Positions 45,821 through 50,545 of a stretch of 64,000 bases of DNA are shown here, one piece after another. The stretch's first letter is position 1; each line of letters starts with the position of its first letter. Source of the DNA: Alphaproteobacteria bacterium (GTDB lineage Bacteria; Pseudomonadota; Alphaproteobacteria; Sphingomonadales; Sphingomonadaceae). The notes beneath the pieces were generated by a model. That model saw only the letters and a list, made by a program, of their open reading frames with translations, did no database searches and was not told where the DNA came from. Location: contig JAUHWC010000003.1 in the NCBI GenBank assembly GCA_030424845.1, positions 319,034-383,033 of the forward strand, read 5' to 3'. Made by a program: the position numbers and the translations under genes.

Positions 45821-46324
45821 ATGGCAGTAACTATCCGTCTCGCACGTGGTGGTGCGAAGAAGCGCCCCTACTACCGCATCGTGGCTGCCGACAGCCGCCG
45901 TGCCCGTGATGGCAAGTACCTGGAGCAGATCGGCACCTACAACCCGATGCTGCCGAAGGACGATGAAAACCGCGTGAAGCTGGATGGAGACCGCGCCCGC
46001 TACTGGCTGAGCGTTGGTGCCTCCACCAGCGACCGCGTCGCCCGCTTCCTCGATGCTGCCGGCATCAAGGAACGCGCGCCGAAGAACAACCCGAAGAAGG
46101 GTGAGCCGGGCGCAGCCGCCAAGGAACGTGCCGAGGAAAAGGCCGCCAAGGCCGCTGAAGCCGAAGAAGCTGCAAAGGCTGCTGAAGAAGAAGCCAACGC
46201 ACCGGCCGAAGAAGCTGCAACCGAAGAAGCTCCCGCCGAGGAAGCTGCTGCTGAAGAGGCTCCGGCTGAAGAAGCAGCTGCCGCCGAGGAAGCTCCGGCT
46301 GAAGAAGAAAAGACCGAGGACTGA
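45821..46324 (+). CDS. rpsP: 30S ribosomal protein S16 with long acidic tail
   Basis: Residues 1-88 are a normal S16 ([44 protein letters not shown]). A Lys/Pro linker follows and then about 70 residues of Ala/Glu/Pro repeats such as [17 protein letters not shown] to residue 167, about double the usual S16 length. Tails of this kind occur in some alphaproteobacteria; the role is unknown. It is followed at once by rimM, whose product matures the 16S head region. Confidence 0.96.
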
Positions 46325-46329
46325 TCCCC

Positions 46330-46836
46330 TTGGTACAGGACAAGCCCGTCACCCTTGCTGCCATTACCGGCGCGCATGGCGTGACGGGCGAAGTCCGCCT
46401 GAAGCTGTTCGGCGAAGGCGTTGCTGCGCTGAACCGCCACACGGCCTTCAATGACGGCGCATTGACGCTCAGGAAGGCCCGGGACGACAACAAGGGCGGG
46501 GCCATCGCCCGCTTCGCCGAGGTGACGGACCGCAATGCCGCGGAAAAGCTGCGCGGCACCGTGCTCACCGTCCCGCGTTCGGCTCTCCTCGCACTGGCGG
46601 AGGGCGAATATTACCACGCAGACCTGATCGGCCTTGCTGCCGTCTCCTCTGACGGGGAAGAACTCGGCACAGTCATATCGGTGGACAATTTCGGTGCCGG
46701 TGACGTGATCGAGATCGAGCGGCCCGCCGCAGAGGGCCAAAAGCCGCAGCGCTTCATGGTCCCCATGCGCATCGAGGCCGTGCCGCATTGGAATGACACG
46801 GAAATTGTCATTCACGCCGACTTCGCTAATGCGTGA
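46330..46836 (+). CDS. rimM: 16S rRNA processing protein RimM
   Basis: A 168-residue 30S maturation factor with an N-terminal RimM domain (PVTLAAITGAHGVTGEVRLKLF) and a C-terminal PRC-barrel (YYHADLIGLAAVSSDGEELG, then VPMRIEAVPHWN). The start is TTG at 46330, with GAGGA 9 bases upstream in the end of rpsP; no ATG fits. Its stop overlaps the next start as GTGA. Confidence 0.93.
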   Translation: MVQDKPVTLAAITGAHGVTGEVRLKLFGEGVAALNRHTAFNDGALTLRKARDDNKGGAIARFAEVTDRNAAEKLRGTVLTVPRSALLALAEGEYYHADLIGLAAVSSDGEELGTVISVDNFGAGDVIEIERPAAEGQKPQRFMVPMRIEAVPHWNDTEIVIHADFANA

Positions 46837-47531
46837 GGGATGCGCTCCAGCCTCAAATCCGCCTCGAAAACCATCGAGGCCACACCGTTCTTGCCTATCC
46901 GAAAGGCTCGGCCCCGCTGGTGGTCGATTGCGGAGCGCACAAGGGCGAATTCGCCACCAGCGTATGCGCCGTATGGGGTGCCCGCTGCCATTCGATCGAG
47001 GCCGCGCCCGGCCTTGCTGCGCAGCTTGACGTGCCCGCGGGAACGAGCACCCATCACTTTGCCGTGAGCGGCGAGGATGGCGAGATCCCCTTCCAGCTTA
47101 CGGACAATGCCGAAGGGTCGCATTTCAAGGACGAGATGGGCGAGGGCTGCGTCATGGTGCCCCAGCGCCACCTTGGCCGGTTCCTCGCTGAAGTGGCGCC
47201 TGACGGGCCCGACTTGCTCAAACTCGATATCGAAGGCGCGGAAATCCCCGCCCTGCAAAGCCTGTCGGACGCGCAACTGGCGCGCATCACCCAGATCACC
47301 TGCGAATTCCATGATTTCTGCGGTTACGTCACTGCGCAGGCCGTCGATGAAGCCATCGCCCGGCTCGAACGCGCCGGCTTTGCCGTGTTCCCTTTCAGCT
47401 GGCACACGCGCGGCGACGTGCTGTTCGTGAACCGCCGCATCGTGCCGCTGGGGCCAGTCGCTCGCCTGCGGATCGCAGCCTACCGCTATGCCCGCGGCTT
47501 CGGGCGCATCCTCTCCCGCCTCGGCGCTTGA
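46833..47531 (+). CDS. FkbM-family SAM-dependent methyltransferase
   Basis: A 232-residue methyltransferase of the FkbM type. SAM-binding VVDCGAHKGEFATSVCAVWG lies near 29-48, SIEAAPGLAAQL near 54-65, and the family DLLKLDIEGAEIPAL near 127-141. FkbM enzymes O-methylate sugars or polyketides. The substrate here is unknown. GTG at 46833 overlaps the rimM stop, so it is translated with rimM, an unusual insertion into the rpsP-rimM-trmD-rplS operon. An Arg/Tyr-rich tail (RLRIAAYRYARGFGRILSRLG) ends the protein. Confidence 0.85.
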   Translation: MRDALQPQIRLENHRGHTVLAYPKGSAPLVVDCGAHKGEFATSVCAVWGARCHSIEAAPGLAAQLDVPAGTSTHHFAVSGEDGEIPFQLTDNAEGSHFKDEMGEGCVMVPQRHLGRFLAEVAPDGPDLLKLDIEGAEIPALQSLSDAQLARITQITCEFHDFCGYVTAQAVDEAIARLERAGFAVFPFSWHTRGDVLFVNRRIVPLGPVARLRIAAYRYARGFGRILSRLGA

Positions 47532-47587: not shown

Positions 47588-48016
47588 ATGACAGTGGCAC
47601 TCATTCTGCTTGCCGTTGCGGTGCTGTTTGCTGCGCTGGGCGGCGGATTTGCCTTGGGCCTGCACCTTTTCCGGCCGCACATGCCTCGCAAGAAGCGCAT
47701 TGCATGGTCCGCAGGGCTTGCCGCGTTTCTGCCGATGATCCTGCCGTTTGTGGGGTTCCTGGTCGAAGGGGCGGATTACACTGCGGATGGCGCGACCGAT
47801 TCCCTGCTCGGTTTCCTTGCGCTGCTCAGCGCGATGGTGATGGCAGGCCTGGTGTTCTGCCTGCCATCAGCCTGGTGGGTCACCAGCCGGATGCACGGCA
47901 CCGCACCTCATGGCGCGGATGGCGATGCTTCCGGGACCGATCGCAAGGTGCTGGAGGACCGGCAGGAGGATCGTGACGTTGCGCTTGACGAGAAGATGGA
48001 GCCGCGGGCAGTCTGA
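47588..48016 (+). CDS. Small three-span membrane protein, cluster member 1
   Basis: A 142-residue product of no recognised family. Hydrophobic segments at about 3-27, 40-60 and 74-94; a basic loop PHMPRKKRIAW follows the first; the third ends CLPSAWWVTSRM. The last 45 residues are polar and charged (HGADGDASGTDRKVLEDRQE). The layout resembles the neighbours at 48030 and 49091 (third span ending SLPGAIAMSRM or [10 protein letters not shown]). GAGGGAGAA before ATG 47588 supports the start. Lies 56 bases after the FkbM gene. Confidence 0.7.
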   Translation: MTVALILLAVAVLFAALGGGFALGLHLFRPHMPRKKRIAWSAGLAAFLPMILPFVGFLVEGADYTADGATDSLLGFLALLSAMVMAGLVFCLPSAWWVTSRMHGTAPHGADGDASGTDRKVLEDRQEDRDVALDEKMEPRAV

Positions 48017-48029
48017 CAGCGTGGCTTTC

Positions 48030-48350
48030 ATGCTGATCTTCTTGTTTTTCGCGATCATCCTGCTCAATGGCTTTGCCGCGGGCGTGGCGGCGTTCCTCTA
48101 CCTGCGGTATCGCCACTGGTATCGCGGCAGGCGCAATTTCATCGCCGTGGCGGCAACCGGGGCAATCGTGGCGCTGATGTTCACCGGGGTGGCGATCTTC
48201 GCGCCTGGCAGCGTCTCGGAAGCGGGACTGGTGGTTAGCTTCATCCTGATCATCTTCGGCGGGGGCGGGGCGGTGCTGTCCCTGCCGGGTGCCATCGCCA
48301 TGAGCCGCATGGTCGAACGCGGGCCGTCCGTGGGCGACACCTTCGACTGA
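48030..48350 (+). CDS. Small three-span membrane protein, cluster member 2
   Basis: A 106-residue product with hydrophobic segments at about 1-24, 38-56 and 66-90, a basic loop RYRHWYRGRRN after the first, and a third span ending SLPGAIAMSRMVE, very like cluster member 1. The start is ATG 48030 or GTG 48021 (three more residues); neither has a clear ribosome site. Thirteen bases separate it from member 1. Function unknown. Confidence 0.65.
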   Translation: MLIFLFFAIILLNGFAAGVAAFLYLRYRHWYRGRRNFIAVAATGAIVALMFTGVAIFAPGSVSEAGLVVSFILIIFGGGGAVLSLPGAIAMSRMVERGPSVGDTFD

Positions 48351-48419
48351 CACATCGCTGATTGCCGGGTTCAGGGCTTAGGATTTGCCTTGTGCGCCCC
48401 GTGAAGCTAGCCCCGCGCC

Positions 48420-48752
48420 ATGGAAGTCTTCGGAATCGTCTTCGGCCTTGCCTATTGGGTGTTGCCGGTATTGCTGGGGTACCTGGCAACGCGCTTCCGG
48501 CCGCAATGGGCCTGGTGGAAGTGCGGCTTGGTCGCCGGTGCGCCCTTTGCCGTGCTGCTGCTGGCTGTCGCGATCTGGATCGGCCTGACTTCGGATATCT
48601 CCACTTGCGCGGAGCCGCCTTGCCAGAACATGGCACCGCTCTTCTTCTGGGGTCTGCTGGCCGGTTCGGCGTTCACCCTGGGGCTCGGCTTCGGCCTTGG
48701 CATGGTGGGCCGTGCGCTGGCACCCACACCGCCTTCCGTGAAAGGTCAATGA
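48420..48752 (+). CDS. Small three-span membrane protein, cluster member 3 (CAEPxC type)
   Basis: A 110-residue product. Hydrophobic segments at about 4-24, 36-57 and 72-96. Between the second and third lies DISTCAEPPCQNMAPLFFWG, and the last span ends GFGLGMVGRAL. The same elements recur in the next gene (CAEPLC, APLYFW, GFGLGMVGHAL), so the two are paralogues. The paired cysteines suggest a disulfide in a periplasmic loop. Its TGA overlaps the next ATG. Confidence 0.68.
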   Translation: MEVFGIVFGLAYWVLPVLLGYLATRFRPQWAWWKCGLVAGAPFAVLLLAVAIWIGLTSDISTCAEPPCQNMAPLFFWGLLAGSAFTLGLGFGLGMVGRALAPTPPSVKGQ

Positions 48753-49084
48753 TGCTCGAACTGCTGGTTTCCGTGCTGGTCTTCGGCTTGCCGATGCTGG
48801 TTGGCTTCATACTGGCGCGCAGGAAGCCCGGTTGGGGGCCGTTCCGCGTGTCCTTTCTCTCCTCGCTGCCGATGGGGCTGATGTTCCTGCTGGGCGCGGT
48901 GCTGCTGCGCTTCACCGTGGAGAATCCGCCTTGTGCCGAGCCGCTCTGCGCCGACACCGCGCCACTCTATTTCTGGGCCTTGCTGATCTGGGGCATCGTG
49001 GCCCTGCTGGTGGGCTTCGGACTTGGCATGGTGGGCCATGCGCTGGGATCGAAGAAGGCCAAGAGCAAAGCGAGCGCAGACTGA
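48749..49084 (+). CDS. Small three-span membrane protein, cluster member 4 (CAEPxC type)
   Basis: A 111-residue paralogue of the preceding gene: spans at about 3-23, 36-54 and 73-97, loop ENPPCAEPLCADTAPLYFWA, terminal GFGLGMVGHALG and a Lys-rich tail (SKKAKSKASAD). ATGATG at 48749 overlaps the preceding stop, so translation is coupled. Function unknown. Confidence 0.68.
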   Translation: MMLELLVSVLVFGLPMLVGFILARRKPGWGPFRVSFLSSLPMGLMFLLGAVLLRFTVENPPCAEPLCADTAPLYFWALLIWGIVALLVGFGLGMVGHALGSKKAKSKASAD

Positions 49085-49090
49085 GGCGAT

Positions 49091-49432
49091 ATGGGTGAAG
49101 CGCTGGTCATCGCATCGGGGTTGTTGGCGATCATCGTGATCGTGGGCTTGTTCTTCGGAGTCGCTGTTATACTGGCATCTCTGGTCCTTGCTGCATTTCC
49201 GGGCTGGAACCGCAAATGGGTAGCGTTCATGGCTTCGGGAGTATTGCCTCTCGGGTGCTTGCTCCTCTTTGTCGGCTCGCTTGTTGCGGTGGTGGACGAA
49301 GAGTTTCGCGGTCCTGAAGTTCTTGGTCTGGCTATTCTGGGGATCGCGACTGGTTTCGCGATAGTGGTAGCGTGGCCCTTTGGCTGGTGGCTGACCGATC
49401 GCTTCTTGCGCAAGCGCGGGGTGCAGCCATGA
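49091..49432 (+). CDS. Small three-span membrane protein, cluster member 5
   Basis: A 113-residue product with hydrophobic segments at about 5-34, 45-66 and 74-97, ending [15 protein letters not shown]. The WW-x-T-x-R ending parallels cluster member 1 (WWVTSRM). An acidic loop ([10 protein letters not shown]) replaces the cysteine loop. It starts 6 bases after member 4 and its TGA overlaps the trmD start, which ties the cluster to the trmD transcript. Confidence 0.7.
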
Positions 49433-50169
49433 CCTTCGCCGCCACCGTGCTCACGCTCTATCCCGAGATGTTCCCCGGGCCGCTGGGCGTGTCGCTGGCG
49501 GGTCGCGCATTGGAGCGGGGCGACTGGTCGATGGAAACCGTCCAGATCCGCGATTTCGCGACCGACAAGCACCGCACGGTGGACGATACGCCTGCCGGTG
49601 GCGGTGCGGGCATGGTCCTGAAACCCGATGTGCTGGCCAGCGCGCTTGATCACGCGACCCAAATCCGGCCTGACGTTCCCATCCTCGCCATGACCCCGCG
49701 CGGCAAACCGATCACGCAGGCGCGTATTCGCGAGATCGCTTCCGGTCCCGGAGTCACCATCATCTGCGGCCGTTTCGAAGGCTTTGACGAGCGTATTTTC
49801 GAGGCTCGCCCGCAGATCGAGGAGGTGAGCCTTGCCGATATCGTCCTTTCGGGCGGGGAACCGGCGGCACTGGCCATATTAGACGCTTGCATTCGCCTGC
49901 TTCCCGGCGTAATGGGCGCGCCTTCAAGCGGTATCGAGGAAAGCTTCGAAAGCGGCCTCCTGGAATATCCGCAATATACCCGACCTCAGGAATGGGAAGG
50001 GCGCACGATCCCTGAAGTGCTGCGATCGGGGGATCATGCGAAGATTTCGGCTTGGCGCAAGCAGAAGTCGGAAGAGACAACTCGGTTACGCAGGCCGGAC
50101 CTTTGGGAGCGTCATGAGGACGCTCGGGACCAGCCTGCCTCTGGCGCGCGGCGTGAAAACAAGGATTAG
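49429..50169 (+). CDS. trmD: tRNA (guanine-N1)-methyltransferase TrmD
   Basis: A 246-residue SPOUT-class enzyme making m1G37 in tRNAs, which prevents +1 frameshifting. Family motifs: [38 protein letters not shown] near residue 50, [15 protein letters not shown] near 108 and [20 protein letters not shown] near 138. ATG at 49429 overlaps the preceding stop. Followed by rplS after 4 bases. Confidence 0.97.
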
Positions 50170-50173
50170 GGCC

Positions 50174-50545
50174 ATGGGTCTTATTCAGGAACTCGAAGCA
50201 GAAAACATCGCTTCGCTTGCAGAGGGGAAGGACATCCCCGATTTCCGCGCCGGTGACACCGTGCGCGTCGGTGTGCGCGTCGTCGAAGGCCAGCGCACCC
50301 GTACCCAGAACTTCGAAGGGGTGGTGATTGCCCGCTCGAACCGTTCGATCAACAGCAATTTCACTGTTCGCAAGATCAGCTTCGGCGAAGGCGTGGAACG
50401 TGTGTTCCCGCTCTACAGCCCGAATATTGAATCGATTACCGTGGTCCGTCGCGGTGTCGTGCGTCGGGCCAAACTCTACTATCTGCGCGGCCGTACCGGC
50501 AAGCGCGCCCGCATCGCCGAGCGTCGGGAGAATGTTGGCCAGTAA
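50174..50545 (+). CDS. rplS: 50S ribosomal protein L19
   Basis: A 123-residue L19: [47 protein letters not shown] and [18 protein letters not shown] are all typical. ATG at 50174 yields [10 protein letters not shown]. Last gene of the operon; a strong terminator follows. Confidence 0.97.

Follow-up and report, generated by a model that had tools for sequence, protein, structure and literature searches.

The five small membrane-protein genes at 47588–49432 of the window (the whole stretch of 64 000 nucleotides that was analysed) lie between two core translation genes, which we take to be rimM and trmD. We consider it fairly probable that the array represents one state of an accessory site within the rpsP–rimM–trmD–rplS operon of a large family of Alphaproteobacteria (probably the Sphingomonadaceae). 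In this family the slot is open and its contents vary, whereas almost all genomes measured from other families have it closed. What is new here is a family-specific variable slot in a core translation operon, together with two unnamed membrane-protein families that reside there; at the sensitivity of the sequence searches used, these fast-evolving three-span families were found nowhere but in the slot. A junction that almost all other measured alphaproteobacterial families keep closed has thus become a fast-changing cassette site in one large family. We found no report of a rimM–trmD slot in the open-licence literature, as judged by titles and the opening parts of abstracts.

The slot between rimM and trmD

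All of the genes in question lie on the forward strand, in the order rimM, an FkbM-type methyltransferase, genes 1–5, trmD and rplS (Table 1). The start of the methyltransferase overlaps the end of rimM (GTGA), and the non-overlapping gaps from the methyltransferase through trmD are each 69 bases or less. A tblastn search of the loci of 60 relatives found no methyltransferase similar to that of the window. The S16 protein, with 167 residues in total, carries a long, acidic C-terminal extension rich in Ala, Glu and Pro.

Table 1. Genes of the slot and its flanks in the window. The names rpsP, rimM, trmD and rplS are presumed.
Feature	Coordinates	Strand	Remarks
rpsP (ribosomal protein S16)	45821..46324	+	Open reading frame; upstream flank; as a query, adjoins rimM in most fetched loci
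rimM	46330..46836	+	Upstream border of the slot
FkbM-type methyltransferase	46833..47531	+	First cargo gene; GTG start; Pfam PF05050, E = 7.5e-17
Gene 1 (family A)	47588..48016	+	142 residues; three spans, then an acidic helical C-terminal tail
Gene 2 (family A)	48021..48350	+	Start GTG 48021 (109 residues) or ATG 48030 (106 residues); C-terminus -DTFD
Gene 3 (family B)	48420..48752	+	110 residues; two Cys in predicted periplasmic loop 2
Gene 4 (family B)	48749..49084	+	111 residues; two loop 2 Cys; start overlaps the end of gene 3 (ATGA)
Gene 5 (family A)	49091..49432	+	113 residues; stop overlaps the trmD start (ATGA)
trmD	49429..50169	+	ATG 49429; downstream border of the slot
rplS	50174..50545	+	ATG 50174; next operon gene downstream

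Of 149 genomes sampled in the family, 148 yielded trmD, and the upstream DNA was taken for 133 of these. Together with seven genomes chosen for profile hits (L180–L186) and the window, this gave 141 slot loci, of which 132 were measurable and nine were without rimM; the window and L180–L186 are left out of the tally of slot contents, which covers 124 slots. The distance from rimM to trmD ranges from −4 to 5532 bp over the 132 measurable loci. Twenty-four of the 124 slots are empty and 100 are filled, with a three-span open reading frame in 37, a member of family A in 16 and one of family B in three. Other cargo includes a VapC-like (PIN) protein (33 slots), an oxidoreductase (33 slots) and a nitrilase-like protein (12 slots), these three labels being based on Pfam matches of single examples. 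The slot PIN-type genes (e.g. L021 296–676, minus strand) all lie on the operon strand (33/33) and the oxidoreductases all on the opposite strand (33/33). PIN-domain genes end exactly at the trmD start in several slots. VapC-like and three-span cargo occur together in seven slots, a weak avoidance (Fisher p = 0.028, uncorrected and with relatedness ignored). No integrase or transposase was present among the few cargo proteins that were scanned.

Outside the family, the loci were drawn from the best 28 of 110 trmD-matching genomes (114 class-wide), 27 of which had rimM within 1.5 kb. Of these 27 measured genomes of the class, 26 have a gap of at most 39 bp and the remaining one a gap of 207 bp; thus, within this sample the open slot is characteristic of the family. 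Conserved flanks with variable or absent content in relatives, the pattern expected of a variable slot, are what was found.

The two membrane-protein families are confined to this place to the extent that the searches could resolve. With profile A1 of family A, all 44 places matched at E ≤ 1e-4 in 298 genomes are at the slot (30 from fetched loci, two in the window and 12 from larger or later loci), some of them having only one flank visible, with contig ends in G018, G037 and G135. Weaker A1 matches, up to E = 0.01, are mostly within much longer frames. With profile A3, run against 296 genomes of the order, the slot accounts for all 27 fetched loci at E ≤ 2.4e-4, three matches containing a stop codon; the next three fetched matches are away from the slot, and the single match outside the family (E = 4.6e-4) falls inside a 553-residue frame. 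Family B is at the slot in eight of eight matches at E ≤ 0.00163, and six weaker matches show neither flank within 1.5 kb. As controls, matches to the nitrilase-like cargo at 63% identity or more are at the slot in 13 of 21 cases and elsewhere in the other eight, and matches to the oxidoreductase cargo at 54–60% identity also occur elsewhere in many genomes. At most 15 first-look candidates per genome were scored in each whole-genome search and the proteins diverge fast, so that some relatives of families A and B elsewhere may go unrecognized.

Two families of three-span membrane proteins

The original prediction of five small three-span membrane proteins with a basic loop after the first span agrees with our analysis: all five open reading frames are present, encode 106–142 residues and contain three hydrophobic segments each by hydropathy, and they share the same predicted topology. 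Loop 1 of genes 1–5 contains two to five Lys/Arg residues and no Asp/Glu, and loop 2 has a net negative charge. Over 67 slot three-span proteins, the totals are 220 Lys/Arg and 25 Asp/Glu in loop 1 versus 56 Lys/Arg and 162 Asp/Glu in loop 2. These loop charges and the Lys/Arg residues that follow span 3 in the 67 proteins would place loop 1 and the C-terminus inside, and we infer from the positive-inside rule that the proteins reside in the inner membrane in an N-out/C-in orientation. AlphaFold2 folding, which covered genes 1 and 4, gave models of three long helices for both (pLDDT 83 and pTM 0.54 for gene 1; pLDDT 82 and pTM 0.67 for gene 4).

The tallies of slot three-span proteins are counts of open reading frames plus hydropathy, in place of codon-usage gene calling. 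In the 107 slots of at least 200 bp, 67 frames of 75–180 residues with three or more hydropathy spans lie on the operon strand versus none on the opposite strand. Gene 5 was missed by a strict codon-usage gene caller; its support comes from homologues in G054 and G464. In close pairs of slot homologues the differences are mostly at third codon positions (4/1/24 for the three positions in L129/L131 and 3/1/9 in the A pair of L183/L184), with the last pair of L183/L184 as an exception (2/3/3). Substitutions in the pairs formed by the window genes themselves are near saturation.

The five proteins were originally regarded as apparent paralogues. Global pairwise scores compared with local shuffles gave z values of 11 for genes 3/4, 4.5 for 1/5, 3.2 for 4/5 and 2.3 for 3/5, and detected no relation of gene 2 to the other four. 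Iterated profiles were needed because pairwise comparison alone missed gene 2. Run over the open reading frames of the loci of 60 relatives and the window, these profiles joined genes 1, 2 and 5 whichever of the three served as the start (family A), and genes 3 and 4 with each other (family B); gene 2 joins family A only via proteins of other genomes. The A and B sets did not merge at E < 0.005. Profile–profile comparison with hhalign gave an A–B probability of 2.4% at first; larger alignments (A3 with 23 sequences and A4 with eight) raised it to 21%, over 26 columns in the region of loop 1, which is suggestive of relatedness. The part of the paralogy claim that stands is the detectable relation within 1/2/5 and within 3/4; what had been seen as one set is two families, with a mutual link that is hinted at. 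At E < 1e-3, 228 pairs among 68 slot three-span proteins are linked, and at E < 1e-5 the number is 135; reversed queries gave 11 and three hits, respectively. Another multi-span protein of 166–169 residues recurs in three slots (L258 4632–5138, L259 1835–2344 and L142 4793–5293, oriented) and is apparently a further slot membrane family.

The absence of a known family, also part of the original prediction, was borne out in that genes 1–5 score below every curated Pfam and NCBIfam cutoff. Searches of Pfam, PHROGs and PADLOC over the alignments returned scattered weak matches, the best Pfam match having E = 0.00038 for one member. Two candidates were considered and rejected: DUF2749 (PF10907), which gene 1 matches at 17.7 bits against a gathering cutoff of 25.5, and the toxin GhoT/OrtT (PF10753), matched by two of 23 members with a best E of 0.056. 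Fold searches of the PDB with the models of genes 1 and 4 found nothing at E ≤ 0.001, and a family A profile search of PDB sequences found no match. Queries with gene 1 (or its group) and with gene 4 (or family B) found no relatives in viral contigs, plasmids or phages.

Turnover of the slot and coupling to trmD

Serial duplication, as proposed originally, conflicts with the tree for genes 1, 2 and 5: forcing them into one clade lowers lnL by 108 (p-AU = 4.3e-13). They fall into three different groups, each with proteins of other genomes, and look like separate old lineages collected at one place and not like a recent copy chain. Genes 3 and 4 are unjoined in the best tree, and a constraint making them sisters gives p-AU = 0.452; these two may be local duplicates.

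The contents of the slot vary within the genus of the window. Compared with G014, the window is 95% identical over ffh and rpsP columns, whereas the counterparts of genes 1 and 4 are 38–51% identical; the slot of G014 holds one A gene, one B gene and no similar methyltransferase. On a quick tree covering 130 of the 132 slots, without a shuffled control and with gain and loss not told apart, the fewest changes needed are 15 for 23 carriers of family A, 28 for 45 carriers of any three-span protein, 27 for 32 VapC-like carriers and 20 for 24 empty slots. The contents may change by repeated gain and loss, perhaps with exchange of alleles through the conserved flanks.

The junction with trmD seems to be kept as the cargo changes, as suggested by open frames in filled slots and by rimM/trmD overlaps in empty ones. 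The frame that ends at the trmD start is open for at least 60 codons in 61 of the 100 filled slots, compared with 14 and six for the other two frames, and in 17 of the 24 empty slots rimM overlaps trmD by four bases. Because the first codons of trmD themselves largely dictate the TGA at its start (in 89 of 100 filled slots), coupling is judged from the open frame and not from the TGA. An exact coupled frame is absent from 40 of the 100 filled slots, 17 of which hold an opposite-strand oxidoreductase, and some of the coupled frames look like open frames without a gene. The cargo would be translated from the operon mRNA and coupled to trmD.

The trmD gene has a peculiarity of its own. The match to it is split near residues 75–82 in about 16 of the 149 family genomes, some of which report an in-frame stop. 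The inserts responsible (e.g. L257 1380–1505, L063 165–290 on the minus strand and L024 6235–6350) are absent from trmD of the window and, when read, give two recurring kinds of peptide plus others. In a folding test of three inserts, each formed a long hairpin (z = −3.6, −6.2 and −7.5); one has 32-base inverted arms, and none were found in the two others at the settings used. The inserts resemble palindromic repeats that have entered a core gene in frame; similar in-frame insertions of palindromic repeats occur in Rickettsia. An association between the trmD insert and slot three-span proteins (9/15 versus 28/109, Fisher p = 0.013) failed with independent pairs and was discarded.

The C-terminal tail and possible functions

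Close to one in three of the slot three-span proteins has the ending -F-X-COOH. Phe is the penultimate residue in 26 of 84 of them versus five of 144 other cargo proteins, and accounts for 27 of 710 elsewhere in the last ten residues; these counts are inflated by relatedness, and 16 proteins from mostly hit-chosen loci contribute 6/16 versus 20/68 for the rest. The tail mostly takes the form [V/T]-F-[E/D], with Asp or Glu last in 20 of the 26 and Val or Thr before Phe in 19. Its bearers comprise members of family A, one member of family B (genome G459; locus L261) and otherwise dissimilar three-span proteins, such as those of L179 (5672–6004) and L269, which are outside family A by links or by eye. 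Within the window gene 2 alone carries this tail; the gene 1 group has another, acidic one.

Because the bodies vary while the cytosolic tail is constant, a shared cytosolic partner is suggested. In this view the membrane and periplasmic bodies are the variable part, and the cytosolic C-terminal peptide (-[V/T]-F-[E/D]-COOH in one subset) would be the constant part on which a common cytosolic partner docks; the proteins would then serve as adaptors or sensors in the membrane whose synthesis keeps pace with that of ribosomes. We offer this mode of working, which is read from sequence features, as a tentative proposal. A more specific version, in which a location-locked system of tail-sharing three-span proteins links an envelope signal or the membrane state to RimM, TrmD, the ribosome or SRP, seems rather unlikely to us; if true, it would be a sphingomonad system with genes confined to the stretch between rimM and trmD and translated together with these two. 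Whichever reading applies, the system is bounded and testable: it has one place, two families and a C-terminal motif in common, and naturally empty slots can serve as controls.

An alternative to repeated gain and loss is vertical inheritance of an ancestral multi-gene slot with differential loss, in which case confinement would reflect operon conservation only and the tail would simply be inherited. We regard this as possible, if somewhat doubtful. In its favour, two of three gene 2 relatives adjoin rimM and gene 5 relatives lie near trmD in other genomes, and the data are compatible with a single origin of the gene 1 group within the genus (p-AU = 0.199). Against this stand the many changes on the tree for three-span carriers and empty slots (counted, as stated, without a shuffled control), the differing contents within the genus of the window and the presence of the tail on proteins outside family A and on the family B member.

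Bacteriocin membrane immunity proteins are likewise small and variable with several spans, and the slot proteins could confer immunity to, or exclusion of, pore-forming bacteriocins, contact toxins or phage entry, with the array collecting orphan alleles. Their size, three spans, stacked diverged lineages and turnover would fit such a role, and the slot often holds PIN-domain (VapC-like) proteins (a PIN domain was found in one that was scanned). We nevertheless consider immunity improbable: the neighbours (rimM, the FkbM methyltransferase and trmD) include no toxin partner, no immunity or defence family was matched in Pfam, NCBIfam or PADLOC, the searches of viral contigs, phages and plasmids described above were negative for the queries tried, and the tie of the proteins to one fixed chromosomal place between rimM and trmD would be left unexplained. 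That the -F-[E/D] tail serves as a degron, through which small membrane proteins would undergo quality control, and not as a docking peptide also has little likelihood in our estimate; it is short, C-terminal and common to dissimilar bodies, but the gene 1 group carries a different tail, and we know of no degron of this form. That the cargo frames are mainly spacers keeping translational coupling to trmD, with products that matter little, would account for different kinds of cargo running in frame to the trmD start and is very unlikely, since the third-position bias in most close pairs and the conserved topology and tails point to constraint on the proteins.

The docking proposal aside, the arrangement can be compared with two known kinds of system. 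It resembles tandem paralogue arrays in its adjacent genes of similar size and topology, and for genes 3 and 4 this may be the right description; it differs in that genes 1, 2 and 5 are not most closely related to one another, a caution that what looks like a tidy array of paralogues may be a gathering of old lineages. Integration hotspots and variable slots are known in bacterial core genomes (for Escherichia coli, see PMC2617782). With these the rimM–trmD slot shares fixed conserved flanks, variable contents, empty sites and repeated change. It differs from hotspots in lying inside a core operon for ribosomal proteins and tRNA methylation, in having a frame that usually runs to the start of the next gene and in hosting protein families that were not found elsewhere.
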